In this document: positions 52,125-56,618 of the stretch, piece after piece
Layout of the letters: the number at the start of each line of letters is the position of its first letter
Position numbering within the stretch: position 1 is the stretch's first letter
Program-made: the position numbers and the translations under genes
Source of the DNA: Terriglobia bacterium
GTDB lineage: Bacteria; Acidobacteriota; Terriglobia; Terriglobales; Acidobacteriaceae
Direction of reading: 5' to 3'
NCBI GenBank assembly: GCA_032252755.1
Contig: JAVUPY010000080.1
Location: forward strand, 1-63,412
Length of the DNA stretch: 63,412 nucleotides
Notes under the pieces: generated by a model
The model's input: the letters and a program-made list of their open reading frames with translations, nothing else
Database searches by the model: none
What the model was told of the DNA's origin: nothing

Positions 52125-55100
52125 ATGTCCAAACCAGTTTTCTTCGATCCAGAGGGCAAACGCAGAAAGCGTATTCGCCGCATTCTCGACGTCCTCGGCG
52201 TCTTGTTCACGCTGCTCGCAGTCTTCTTCGTCGTAACCGTCGTCTCCGACTCGGACATAGGGCAAATTCTTTTTCCGGTGCAAAAAAAGTCCTACCACGC
52301 GCTGCTGCAGAAAGAGCGGAAACACCCGAAGAAAATCGGCACGCACCGCAAGACCAAAATCGCCCCCTCGCAAGTCGTCCTCAACAAGGACGAAGGCATC
52401 CGGGGGGCATTTTATGTCACCTGGGACGCGGCCAGTTTCTCTTCCCTGCGGGAATATATCCACCAGATCGACCTGCTCTATCCCGAGTGGCTTCACGTAC
52501 TGACACCTGACGGGCGTCTGCAGGCCGTCACCGAGTTGAACCAGCTCTACAACGTCATTGACAAGAATGGCCGACCGCGCGTTGTTGATGACAAGCTAAT
52601 GCCATATCTCAAGGCCGAGAAGGCCGAGACCGAAGTTTTCCCCATGGTGAACAACTTCGACCCGGTCGCCAGCGTCTGGAAGGAAAACATCGGCTCATTC
52701 CTGAGCGACCCGGGGGCGCGCGCCCGTTTCCGCCGGCAACTCACGACATTTCTTGCCAGCGACAAGTATCGCGGCCTCACGCTCGACTTTGAGGCGTTCC
52801 CGCTGTCCGCGCAACCCGGCTATCGCGCGCTCATCCAGGAACTCGCGTCCGACCTTCACGCCAGGGGCATGAAACTGTATGTCGCGGTCCCGGCCAACAA
52901 TGAGGACTTCGACTACTCCTTCATGTCGAAGTATGCCGACGGATTGATCCTGATGAACTACGACCAGCACTATCCCGGATACCCCGGTGGCGTGCCCGGT
53001 CCGATTGCCGGTCAGGACTGGTTCATCAACAACCTGAAGGCGGCACTGAAGGTCATCCCGCAGGACAAGATCATTTGCGCTATCGGCAACTACGGTTACG
53101 ACTGGATCGTCCACAAAGACCAGAAGCCGTTTGACGGGAACGCGCACAACGTTTCCGTGCAGGACGCGTGGCTCGAGGCACACGACTCCGAAGCCGACAT
53201 CGACTTCGACCCTGACCAGTTGAACCCGCACTTCTCATATCTCGACGAGGACAATACCAAGCACGAGGTCTGGTATCTCGACGCGGTCACCGCACTAAAT
53301 GAGATGCGCGCCGCACGCCACCTTGGAATCACGACGTTCGCGCTTTGGCGGCTTGGATCCGAAGACCGTGCGCTCTGGCAGATATGGGATAAGCCGATGG
53401 ATCCGAACGCCGTCGATAAGCTCCGCGTAATGCCACCGGGACAGGATGTCGACCTCGAAGGAGCCGGCGAAGTGCTCCAGATCGAGGCGCAACCATCAGA
53501 GGGTAGTCGCGAACTCGACGTAGACAAAGATACCGGCTACGTCACCGACCAGCGCATAACGGAACTTCCGCTGCCCTACCGTCTCGGCGAATACGGCGGC
53601 TCCGATAAGAAGAAGGTTGCGATCACCTTCGACGACGGCCCCGATCCACAATGGACTCCGAGGATTCTGGACATACTGAAGAAGGAGCACGCGACAGCGA
53701 CCTTCTTCATTATCGGCTCTGAGGCTCAGAACAATATGCGCCTGCTTCGTCGCATTTACGACGAAGGCAACGAGATCGGCAACCATACCTTCCTGCATCC
53801 GGACATCAGCGACGTCTCGAAAACATACATGAAGGTCGAGTTGAACCTTACCGAGCGCCTCTTCGCCGGCGTGCTTGGCATCAAGACGCGGTTGTTCCGG
53901 CCGCCATATTCCATCGACCAGGAGCCTGATACCGAAGACCAGGTTCGTCCGCTCGAACTCACACAGTCGCTCGGATATCTCACGATTGGCGACAAGATCG
54001 ACCCCAACGACTGGCACGATAATCCGCGGCAGAGCGCCGAGCAGGTCACCGCATCGGTCATGTCGCAGTTGGGTAATGGCAACATCATCCTGCTGCACGA
54101 TGGCGGTGGAGACCGCTCGCAAACGGTCCGTGCCCTCCCCATGATCATCGAGGGTCTGCGCGCCCGCGGCTACGAAATCGTTCCCGTCTCCGAACTGCTC
54201 GGCAAAACTCGCGAACAGGTGATGCCGACCGTAAAGGGTGCTGACCGCTTCTGGGCGCAAATCGACCTCGTTGGATTTCTGCTGGGCAATTTCCTGAACA
54301 CGCTCATTGTCGCCGTGTTCTTTGTCGGCGATATTCTCATGACCGGGCGGCTCGTCGGTGTAGGCGCGCTGGCCATCTTCGATCGCTTCCGCCGTCGCGG
54401 CCAGGGTAAGGCCAGGGATGCGGCAGGCTATGAACCGGATGTCGCGGTTCTCATCCCGGCCTACAACGAAGAAAAAGTAATCGAGCGCACGATACGCGCC
54501 GTGCTGGATTCCGATTACACGCGGCTGCGAGCCATTGTCATTGACGACGGGTCCACCGATCGCACGTACGAGGTTGTGAACGACTCGTTCGCTCCGGAAA
54601 TTGCAGCCGGCCGGGTGACGCTCCTCACACAACCAAACGGCGGCAAGGCGCGCGCTCTCAACTGCGGCCTTCAACACGTGACGGAGGAAATTTTCGTCGG
54701 GATCGACGCCGACACCGTCATCGCGCCGGATGCAATCGGTTACCTCGTTCCAAACTTTATCGACCCGAAACTCGGCGCACTGGCCGGCAACGCCAAGGTC
54801 GGCAACAAGATCAATCTCTGGACACGCTGGCAGGCGCTGGAGTACATCACAAGCCAGAACTTCGAGCGGCGCGCCCTGAACACTTTCTCTGCCGTGAGCG
54901 TCGTGCCCGGCGCAATCGGCGCGTGGCGAACCGAAGCCGTGCGCGAATGTGGCGGGTATCACGTCGATACCGTCGCCGAAGATGCCGATCTCACGATGGC
55001 GCTGTTACAGGCCGGATACAAGGTCGAATACGAAGACCGCGCGATTGCATACACCGAAGCCCCGCACAACGCGCGCGGCTTAATGCGGCAGCGCTTCCGC

Positions 55101-55601
55101 TGGTCCTTCGGAATCCTGCAGGCCGTCTATAAGCATCGGCGGGCAACAGTGCGCGAAGGCGCGCTCGGCTGGATCGCCATCCCTAACATCATCATCTTCC
55201 AGATCCTGCTGCCGATCGTTTCGCCATTCATCGACATCATGTTCGCCTACGGCGCGCTCAAGTACTGGATCTGGGACCGCCACTTCCATCCCGACACCGC
55301 CGACCCGGCAAGTTTCCAGAAGCTGGTAATTTACTTCGCGCTGTTCATGATCATCGACTTCATCGCCTCGACAATCGCTTTCAGCCTTGAGCGTCGCCGC
55401 CGCGGCCATGGACATGACTGGTGGCTCCTCGGACAGGTTTGGCTGCAGCGCTTCGCCTACCGCCAGTTGTTCTCGGTAGTCCTGATGAAGACCATCAAGC
55501 GCGCTATGGAGGGCGAAAGCTTCGCCTGGGACAAACTCGAACGCCGCGCCACCGTGAAGGCCCAACCCGCGGTACCGGTCGGCGCGGGACGAAATGATTA
55601 G
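52125..55601 (+). CDS. GH18-polysaccharide deacetylase-GT2 fusion protein
   Basis: A 1158-residue protein with three enzyme domains. A membrane helix (20-42) leads to a GH18-like domain (about 90-440) with GLTLDFEAFP (Asp221, Glu223) in place of the usual DxxDxDxE. A NodB polysaccharide deacetylase domain (about 495-690) follows, with AITFDDGPDP (Asp503-504) and the zinc pair His554/His558. Membrane segments come next, then a GT2 domain (about 770-995) with VIDDGSTD, GIDADT, EDADLT and QRFRW (989-993), ending in more helices. The GT2 would polymerise a GlcNAc-type chain and the outer domains trim and deacetylate it, like PgaB plus PgaC in one chain. Substrate is inferred. The ATG lacks a good ribosome site. 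Confidence 0.93.
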   Translation: MSKPVFFDPEGKRRKRIRRILDVLGVLFTLLAVFFVVTVVSDSDIGQILFPVQKKSYHALLQKERKHPKKIGTHRKTKIAPSQVVLNKDEGIRGAFYVTWDAASFSSLREYIHQIDLLYPEWLHVLTPDGRLQAVTELNQLYNVIDKNGRPRVVDDKLMPYLKAEKAETEVFPMVNNFDPVASVWKENIGSFLSDPGARARFRRQLTTFLASDKYRGLTLDFEAFPLSAQPGYRALIQELASDLHARGMKLYVAVPANNEDFDYSFMSKYADGLILMNYDQHYPGYPGGVPGPIAGQDWFINNLKAALKVIPQDKIICAIGNYGYDWIVHKDQKPFDGNAHNVSVQDAWLEAHDSEADIDFDPDQLNPHFSYLDEDNTKHEVWYLDAVTALNEMRAARHLGITTFALWRLGSEDRALWQIWDKPMDPNAVDKLRVMPPGQDVDLEGAGEVLQIEAQPSEGSRELDVDKDTGYVTDQRITELPLPYRLGEYGGSDKKKVAITFDDGPDPQWTPRILDILKKEHATATFFIIGSEAQNNMRLLRRIYDEGNEIGNHTFLHPDISDVSKTYMKVELNLTERLFAGVLGIKTRLFRPPYSIDQEPDTEDQVRPLELTQSLGYLTIGDKIDPNDWHDNPRQSAEQVTASVMSQLGNGNIILLHDGGGDRSQTVRALPMIIEGLRARGYEIVPVSELLGKTREQVMPTVKGADRFWAQIDLVGFLLGNFLNTLIVAVFFVGDILMTGRLVGVGALAIFDRFRRRGQGKARDAAGYEPDVAVLIPAYNEEKVIERTIRAVLDSDYTRLRAIVIDDGSTDRTYEVVNDSFAPEIAAGRVTLLTQPNGGKARALNCGLQHVTEEIFVGIDADTVIAPDAIGYLVPNFIDPKLGALAGNAKVGNKINLWTRWQALEYITSQNFERRALNTFSAVSVVPGAIGAWRTEAVRECGGYHVDTVAEDADLTMALLQAGYKVEYEDRAIAYTEAPHNARGLMRQRFRWSFGILQAVYKHRRATVREGALGWIAIPNIIIFQILLPIVSPFIDIMFAYGALKYWIWDRHFHPDTADPASFQKLVIYFALFMIIDFIASTIAFSLERRRRGHGHDWWLLGQVWLQRFAYRQLFSVVLMKTIKRAMEGESFAWDKLERRATVKAQPAVPVGAGRND

Positions 55602-55664: not shown

Positions 55665-56618
55665 GTGCTCGAACTAGTCGCCTTTCTACTGAAACACGGC
55701 TACACGCTGCTTTTCGCCTGGGTCTTCGGCGAACAGATCGGGCTGCCCATCCCCGCATCACCCGTCCTGCTCGCGGCCGGAGCCCTCGCCGGAACGCAGC
55801 GGATGTACTTTTCGGTCGTGCTGGCCGTCAGTCTCGTCGCGGCGCTCAGTTCGGACCTGATCTGGTACGGAATCGGCAAACGAAAAGGCGCGAGCGTGTT
55901 GCGTTTGCTGTGCCGCATCTCACTTGAGCCCGATTCATGCGTGCGTCGCACCGAGAGCCTTTACGAGAAGTATGGCGAAAAGTCCCTGCTGTTCGCGAAG
56001 TTCGTTCCCGGCCTGAACACCGCTGCGTCACCGGTTGCCGGAATGTTCCAAATGCCACTCGGCCGCTTCCTGCTGTTCGACACGGCCGGCGTTCTTCTCT
56101 GGTCAGGGAGTTTCATTGGAATGGGTTGGCTTTTCAGCAATCAACTTGAGAACGTCGCATTCTACTTTCGACGGCTCGGATTCTGGCTGGTGCTGCTGCT
56201 TGGGATGACTCTGGCTGCTTACATCTTGCAGAAGTATGAGGACCGGCGCCGCTTCCTGAAGTCGCTTGCGAAAGACCGCATCACCGTCGACCAACTGAAA
56301 GGAATGCTCGATCGCGGTCACCCGGTCACGATTATCGATCTCCGCCACGCCCTCGATGCCCTGCCCGACCCCCGTACCCTGCCCGGCGCACTGCGAATGG
56401 AACCGAGCGAACTCCGCGCGCGCCAAATGGAAATACCCCGCGACCGCGGCGTCGTACTCTATTGCACTTGACCCAACGAAGCCACGAGCGCCCGGGTGGC
56501 GCTCGAATTACGGCGGTTAGGCATCACTGACGTTCATCCGCTGGAAGGCGGCTGGCACGAGTGGAAGTCCAAGGGCTACCCGCTTCAACATCCAGGAGAA
56601 CTGGGCGCGACCGCGTAA
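55665..56618 (+). CDS. DedA-rhodanese fusion, candidate selenoprotein (in-frame TGA at codon 269)
   Basis: A 317-residue protein if the TGA at 56469-56471 is read through. Residues 1-185 are a DedA/SNARE-associated membrane domain (GEQIGLPIPASPVLLAAGAL, KFVPGLNTAASPVAG). Residues 210-317 are a rhodanese domain (VTIIDLRHALDALPDP, then VVLYCT, TGA, PNEATSARVAL, then HPLEGGWHEW). The family usually reads YCxCPNE here, so the TGA replaces a Cys in the rhodanese active-site loop. The 49 codons after it keep the conserved rhodanese end, arguing against a simple pseudogene. A hairpin fitting a bacterial SECIS follows. The start is GTG. It ends at the base before the convergent glgP stop. Without selenocysteine the protein stops at 268. 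Confidence 0.82.
56485..56505 (+). promoter_or_regulatory. Candidate bacterial SECIS hairpin
   Basis: CGAGCGCC (56485-56492) and GGCGCTCG (56498-56505) form a perfect 8-bp stem with the loop CGGGT. The stem starts 13 nt and the loop 21 nt after the TGA. Known bacterial SECIS elements have an apical loop about 16-37 nt after the UGA with a G in its first two positions; this one has G second. It lies inside coding sequence, as required in bacteria. Confidence 0.65.

Follow-up and report, generated by a model that had tools for sequence, protein, structure and literature searches.

A DedA-family membrane protein with a rhodanese domain at its C-terminus, encoded in this genome of the order Terriglobales, is very probably a selenoprotein in which UGA-269, at the catalytic position of the rhodanese, is read as selenocysteine (Sec). 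The gene lies in the window, by which we mean the whole 63,412-nucleotide stretch of DNA analyzed here (Table 1). A selenocysteine rhodanese fused to DedA had been proposed from the letters of the window alone, and beyond this original prediction we describe a cysteine pair in the DedA domain, other fusion partners of the same kind of rhodanese, and NF041203 as the nearest known selenoprotein.

Table 1. Features of the DedA-rhodanese gene and the basis on which each was assigned (positions in the window)
Feature	Positions	Strand	Basis
VTT (DedA)-rhodanese fusion, whole gene	55665..56618	+	317 residues with TGA-269 as selenocysteine; GTG start, TAA stop
VTT (DedA) membrane domain, residues 29-155	55749..56129	+	PF09335, 55 bits vs cut-off 33.9
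Cys83 codon	55911..55913	+	Cys in 125/126 rows, 1 gap; not in two aligned VTT paralogues
Cys92 codon	55938..55940	+	Cys in 125/126 rows, 1 gap; not in two aligned VTT paralogues
Rhodanese domain, residues 207-302	56283..56570	+	PF00581, 41.9 bits vs 22.2 (C for U), spans TGA
Cys267 codon, first residue of CxU	56463..56465	+	Cys in 126/126 rows, set selected on motif
TGA-269, probable selenocysteine codon, catalytic position	56469..56471	+	28 TGA vs 42 TGC/TGT among 70 genes compared
Putative bacterial SECIS element, 8-bp stem, loop CGGGU at 56493-56497	56485..56505	+	Fold, core conservation, covariation

An in-frame TGA at the catalytic position

From a putative GTG start at 55665, taken as such on the basis that it is the earliest ATG, GTG or TTG past the preceding in-frame stop, to the TAA at 56616-56618, the frame has a single interruption, the TGA of codon 269, and the motif around it reads YCT-(TGA)-PNEATSARVAL ... 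LEGGWHEW ... GYP. Under translation table 11 the open reading frame (ORF) stops at residue 268, and a standard annotation would therefore end the protein there, as had been foreseen. The frame does stay open beyond the TGA, as the original prediction held, but its count of 49 codons includes the terminal TAA; the sense codons between TGA-269 and TAA number 48. A stop-free run of that length has a probability of about 0.19 at the local GC content and is weak evidence when taken alone.

Comparison with relatives says considerably more. A protein search (E ≤ 1e-40) gave matches in 350 of the 397 genomes sampled from the order, and the closest homologues, at 45-59% identity, each have exactly one TGA and no other stop. 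We compared 70 genes, comprising the window gene, 29 loci from the protein search and 40 further ones taken mostly in rank order, a set that is not a random sample of the 350 matching genomes; the aligned codon 269 is TGA in 28 of them (window included), TGC in 29 and TGT in 13. The TGA thus sits where the active-site cysteine had been expected, with TGA in 27 relatives and Cys in 42 at the same position, and a check for random stops and frameshifts found all 69 relatives to have one or the other in frames that are otherwise open. A TGA-specific pattern run over the 397 genomes matched 50 places in 47 genomes, against 13 matches for the reversed pattern. Among the 22 places newly found in this way, 19 encode rhodaneses that continue past the TGA, of which 14 have a DedA domain and 5 gave no DedA match to the profile; the other three, in G166, G394 and G265, were chance matches and were removed before counting. 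A TGA rhodanese of the window type is present in at least 44 of the 397 genomes, own included, and is DedA-fused in 42, the figure of 44 being a lower bound since the pattern would overlook genes whose sequence next to the TGA differs in codons or residues. Recurrence of the same TGA in 44 genomes excludes, in practice, the sequencing error that had been raised as a concern. Judged by comparison, with the same TGA in 27 homologues from other genomes and the stem core described below kept in all of them, TGA-269 is far above chance. In some genomes a short TGA rhodanese occurs alongside a DedA-fused one: G095 (L253, L254), G104 (L250, L197) and G110 (L251, L196).

A quick unrooted tree of 126 DedA-rhodaneses (80 Sec, 46 Cys) has 4 Sec/Cys changes, compared with a mean of 37.6 after shuffling, and one starred group contains 39 of the order's 42 Cys rows. 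Sec rows from outside the order were fetched by their TGA pattern, support is weak at many of the deep forks, and the tree has no inferred root, so we draw from it no claim of Sec gain or loss.

A hairpin with the features of a bacterial SECIS element

Thirteen nucleotides after the TGA, folding returned the hairpin CGAGCGCC-CGGGU-GGCGCUCG, the very 8-bp stem and loop that had been predicted, at a UGA-to-loop distance of 21 nt and with a minimum free energy (MFE) of -15.6 kcal/mol. Against dinucleotide shuffles its z-score is -1.34, with 23 of 200 shuffles folding equally well, so that by folding energy alone the hairpin does not stand out. Bacterial SECIS elements have been described as having a loop of 3-9 nt, a stem of 4-16 bp, an MFE of at most -7.5, a G in the first two loop positions and a distance of 16-37 nt from the UGA (PMC13188914, Fig. 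2 legend). The window hairpin lies inside all of these published bounds, with a loop of 5 nt, a stem of 8 bp, G at loop position 2, and the spacing and energy just given, so that the predicted match to bacterial SECIS geometry holds by the terms of that legend.

Conservation and covariation distinguish the TGA genes from their cysteine relatives. A five-pair stem core is found in 28/28 TGA genes vs 1/42 Cys genes, and five to seven of the window's eight paired positions are paired in the other TGA loci inspected. The stem codons are near-frozen in the TGA genes (Ser AGC 27/28, Ala GCC 28/28, Ala GCG 28/28), whereas the same codons vary in the Cys relatives. Across 148 distinct TGA sequences, combining the order set with a pattern set from public genomes, all five core pairs occur in 144, with 12 double compensatory changes, 8 one-sided wobble changes and 4 breaks, and loop position 2 is G in 148/148. 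The pattern used to fetch the public set fixes the TGA together with the greater part of the 5′ stem arm; the stem evidence of that set therefore lies mainly in the 3′ arm, and by itself the set cannot prove stem conservation or Sec:Cys ratios. The order set, in which the stem was not fixed, has the full core in 42 of its 44 distinct sequences and supplies 6 of the 12 double changes. Five of these six come from one genus code, g11, and may be one event, so that fewer events stand behind the 12; the other seven occur in separate sequences, one of the order (L250) and six (L055, L083, L100, L111, L156, L163) from records titled Gammaproteobacteria (three), Deltaproteobacteria, Myxococcota and Chloroflexi. 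Between L250 and its relative L251 two residues differ and the pair is preserved as A-U.

The loop G is contributed by the codon of residue 277 (56493-56495). All 80 of 80 Sec forms have R, S or G at this residue, but 30 of the order's 42 Cys forms have Lys, and the RNA element would seem to limit the choice of amino acid here.

Selenocysteine machinery and its co-occurrence with the TGA rhodanese

The assembly of the window (5.39 Mb, 96 contigs, completeness 99.98) contains all four of selA, selB, selC and selD, the genes that the original prediction had named as the ones to look for: tRNA-Sec with anticodon TCA matches at 65.8 bits, SelB at 380.9, SelA at 563.2 and SelD at 374.7. The SelD gene itself has one in-frame TGA, in the context AAG-U-ASKL (G000:C11:56299-57219, locus L193), in agreement with the UxxK motif listed for SelD of the Sec type (PMC13188914, Table 1), and SelD is likely a selenoprotein in its own right. 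With the DedA-rhodanese, this makes at least two likely selenoprotein genes in the genome.

Across the order, 164 of the 397 genomes have SelB (E ≤ 1e-70), namely 39 of the 44 with a TGA rhodanese vs 125 of the 353 others (one-sided Fisher p = 7e-12, or 6e-12 on all 47 raw pattern genomes), a p-value that serves only as a guide since related genomes are not independent. SelB or tRNA-Sec is present in 43/44 TGA-rhodanese genomes: four of the five without SelB have tRNA-Sec, and the fifth (G366, 81% complete) yielded neither at the thresholds used. tRNA-Sec was found in 24 of the 28 TGA genomes searched for it, and the remaining four have SelB. A second tRNA-Sec candidate in each of G271 and G090 was rejected, as ARAGORN calls it tRNA-Ile(TAT). 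L190 and L191, second matches to the tRNA-Sec family at 60 and 58 bits and tRNA-Ile with anticodon TAT according to ARAGORN, are unusual tRNAs.

From the retained in-frame UGA, the SECIS-like hairpin and the full machinery, we infer that the ribosome inserts selenocysteine at UGA-269. Could the UGA instead be read through as cysteine, tryptophan or glycine? A decoder inserting cysteine would also yield an active enzyme, considering that relatives have Cys at this place, but the complete machinery with its TGA-containing SelD, the association with SelB, the covariation of the SECIS stem and the termination of 10 other long window ORFs by TGA make such decoding most improbable. TGA ends 11 of the 39 long non-overlapping ORFs of the window (ORFs, not proven genes, and the DedA-rhodanese ORF counted) and so looks like an ordinary stop here; a reassignment of the code is not favored. 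That TGA-269 is a true stop, the gene being truncated or decaying or the base miscalled, accords with the table-11 ORF and with a run of 48 open codons that is not improbable alone, but is hardly credible and already contradicted by sequence comparison: the same TGA stands in DedA fusions from 42 of the order's genomes, this one among them, and in at least 66 DedA-fused stretches of public genomes (some possibly the same genomes), the conserved rhodanese end that had been noted past the TGA has G286, G296 and W300 invariant in 42 aligned proteins, and the stem core separates TGA from Cys genes almost completely.

The rhodanese domain and the cysteine pair of the DedA domain

Position 269 is Sec or Cys in all 126 aligned rows, a set selected on that motif, and the role of Sec269 as the predicted rhodanese nucleophile, next to Cys267, is supported. 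An AlphaFold2 model with Cys replacing Sec has a pLDDT of 91.1 and a pTM of 0.79. Among the best 50 of its 253 Foldseek matches the labels are mostly those of rhodanese chains or fusions, with rhodaneses as the top matches and no DedA or VTT label.

The DedA fusion is borne out by a profile match well above its cut-off (Table 1). Two cysteines of the membrane domain, C83 and C92, are common to Sec and Cys fusions alike; the pair was not found in either of this genome's two VTT paralogues that the profile recovered (it missed two others).

Wider distribution and other fusion partners

A pattern scan of GTDB species genomes gave at least 119 stretches, all of which match a rhodanese profile made in this analysis and read through the TGA; some may come from the sampled genomes of the order. 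Among the matches listed, 66 are DedA fusions, 26 are short, 11 are fused to a Na+/H+-exchanger and 9 to a trypsin-like protease, while 4 are cut by the end of the stretch and 3 have no class. Pfam, applied to 10 of these proteins, reported Na_H_Exchanger in 4, Trypsin_2 in 2, VTT in 1 and rhodanese alone in 3 (one a cut stretch); the other architecture assignments rest on profiles built here. The listed records are titled Acidobacteria, Rokubacteria, Deltaproteobacteria/Myxococcota, Gammaproteobacteria, Chloroflexi, Nitrospirae, Gemmatimonadetes and Actinobacteria, among others. The 11 exchanger fusions come from Chloroflexi and Actinobacteria records. The nine trypsin-like proteases with a C-terminal TGA rhodanese come from Rokubacteria records, and their protease part has two conserved cysteines, in 8/9 and 9/9 of the matches listed. 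At a threshold of 60% or more, the conserved Cys columns of the exchanger fusions are those of a CxC within the exchanger domain and the first residue of CxU, both present in 11/11 of the matches listed; two stand-alone antiporters used for comparison are without the CxC at the aligned place.

A possible membrane relay and its alternatives

With SelB and tRNA-Sec placing selenocysteine at UGA-269, the product would be a membrane protein of 317 residues, a DedA/VTT domain followed by a rhodanese whose nucleophile, Sec269, would lie beside Cys267 in a CxU motif. Sec269 may accept sulfane sulfur (or selenium) as a selenenyl-sulfide and exchange the chalcogen, or electrons, with Cys267 and with Cys83/Cys92 of the membrane domain. 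The protein would in this way tie transport, or some step facing the lipid, to the transfer of sulfur or selenium or to redox state. We offer this relay through C83/C92, C267 and Sec269 tentatively, placing its likelihood a little under even; it is suggested by the near-invariance of the three cysteines in the fusions (Table 1) and by the lack of the membrane pair in the two VTT paralogues. Neighboring genes gave no hint for it: around 59 complete DedA-type stretches, crude calling yielded 100 nearest-neighbor ORFs that lie no more than 600 bases away and have fewer than 800 residues, with no clear orientation bias (same strand upstream 25 vs 26, downstream 21 vs 28) and no Pfam family in more than 4 of the 100. 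Just upstream of the gene, the window has a 1158-residue ORF (52125-55601), whose motifs resemble, by eye, those of a polysaccharide deacetylase fused to a glycosyltransferase.

Selenocysteine may also be correct and the domain serve another end, as a redox or persulfide sensor that gates its membrane partner instead of transferring sulfur. A similar Sec domain stands behind an exchanger in at least 11 stretches and behind a trypsin-like protease in at least 9, and the exchanger-domain CxC, present throughout the fusions listed and absent from the two stand-alone antiporters, would suit such gating; to our knowledge, these partners have no common substrate. On the other hand, the domain has the fold and the loop of a transferase, and we consider a sensor a serious possibility that nevertheless falls clearly short of an even chance. 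Rather unlikely in our estimate is a more general form of the relay, in which the Sec-rhodanese would have become fused on several occasions to membrane or envelope partners that are not related, with a conserved Cys pair in each (CX8C in DedA, CxC in the exchanger, two Cys in the protease), as a chalcogen relay between membrane partner and cytosol whose cargo would be sulfane sulfur, selenium or electrons. If true, it would amount to a selenium-dependent device serving several membrane partners.

Another view would make the DedA part an ordinary undecaprenyl-phosphate (UndP) flippase and the rhodanese an unrelated passenger. DedA-rhodanese fusions have been placed in COG0586, putative UndP flippases, in a passage that calls the connection unclear (PMC10127716); the VTT match above cut-off and the first acidic position (E23 in the window protein; E or D in 122/126 fusions) agree with this placement. 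The arginine described as essential for lipid-carrier flipping is, however, absent from the DedA part by alignment, the Arg and acidic positions being assigned through paralogue alignment and known motifs, not through alignment to YghB. The aligned positions 112 and 118 of the window protein are K and N: the first arginine site, 112, is Lys in 122/126 fusions, and 118, which aligns with the second arginine at the second re-entrant tip, is Arg in 0/125, with N, S, G, Q, A and T in its place, whereas both alignable VTT paralogues of the same genome retain R...R. The second acidic position, S32 in the window protein, is D or E in 3/126 fusions, and the Cys pair is confined to the fusions among the sequences compared. 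Together these make a plain flippase with a passenger improbable.

A possible link to selenite uptake is a lead only. A DedA protein of Cupriavidus metallidurans CH34 is tied to selenite uptake in PMC8679861, and work by Ledgham in 2005, cited by title, reportedly concerns the same subject. CH34 carries a Cys-type DedA-rhodanese (L273), which may be that gene.

Comparison with known systems

DedA-rhodanese fusions are already in print, in passages that make no mention of Sec (PMC10127716, PMC12893004), as are other Sec rhodaneses or sulfurtransferases (PMC1088965, PMC2398784). The words "DedA" and "VTT" are absent from the main text of a 2026 inventory of 119 selenoprotein families or subfamilies (PMC13188914), and a literature search, with most subscription papers and preprints outside it, found no report of a Sec DedA-rhodanese. 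The gene would add a widespread selenoprotein architecture, whose protein a table-11 reading cuts at the active site, and would tie selenium to a membrane family whose rhodanese fusions are given no known role in the cited passages of these papers. The Cys pair is a direct handle for testing what DedA-rhodaneses do.

Among known selenoproteins, the closest is NF041203 (rhodanese_LYCAU), the best NCBIfam match of the rhodanese domain, listed as rhodanese-like form 3 with motif CxU (PMC13188914, Table 1). A rhodanese domain with the CxU motif is common to both, but the window protein reaches 93.9 bits against a cut-off of 115 and is therefore a relative not filed under that family, and it is fused to a VTT domain with a near-invariant Cys pair, while the NF041203 model spans 126 positions. 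Of three short TGA forms, L103 passes the same cut-off at 145 bits, and L062 (95) and L090 (109) stay below it. TsoB (NF045694, rhodanese form 5) also combines, judging by its name (rhodanese/DsbD fusion-like), a Sec rhodanese with a membrane redox protein, but its motif is UxxxxU with two Sec (PMC13188914, Table 1) where the window protein has CxU, and the match of the window protein to NF045694 is weak, at 15.6 bits vs a cut-off of 805. The nearest functional analogy may be the YeeE/YedE thiosulfate transporter family selenoprotein (PF04143; PMC13188914, Table 1), a Sec sulfur transporter of another Pfam family, likened here by analogy alone.

The same domain order, with Cys, is seen in PA1209 of Pseudomonas aeruginosa, a Cys-type DedA-rhodanese whose role is left open in the passage describing it (PMC12893004), and in WP_003112452.1, a "DedA family protein/thiosulfate sulfurtransferase GlpE" from a P. 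aeruginosa plasmid; both are likened to the window protein by architecture. Four aligned proteobacterial Cys-type fusions have the same Cys pair and a Cys at the position of Sec269. The Cys-type fusions differ in having Cys for Sec, and 41 of the 42 Cys relatives of the order are without the five-pair SECIS core. With Sec and Cys forms among its relatives, in genomes with and without SelB, the family is a good system in which to ask why selenocysteine is kept or lost.
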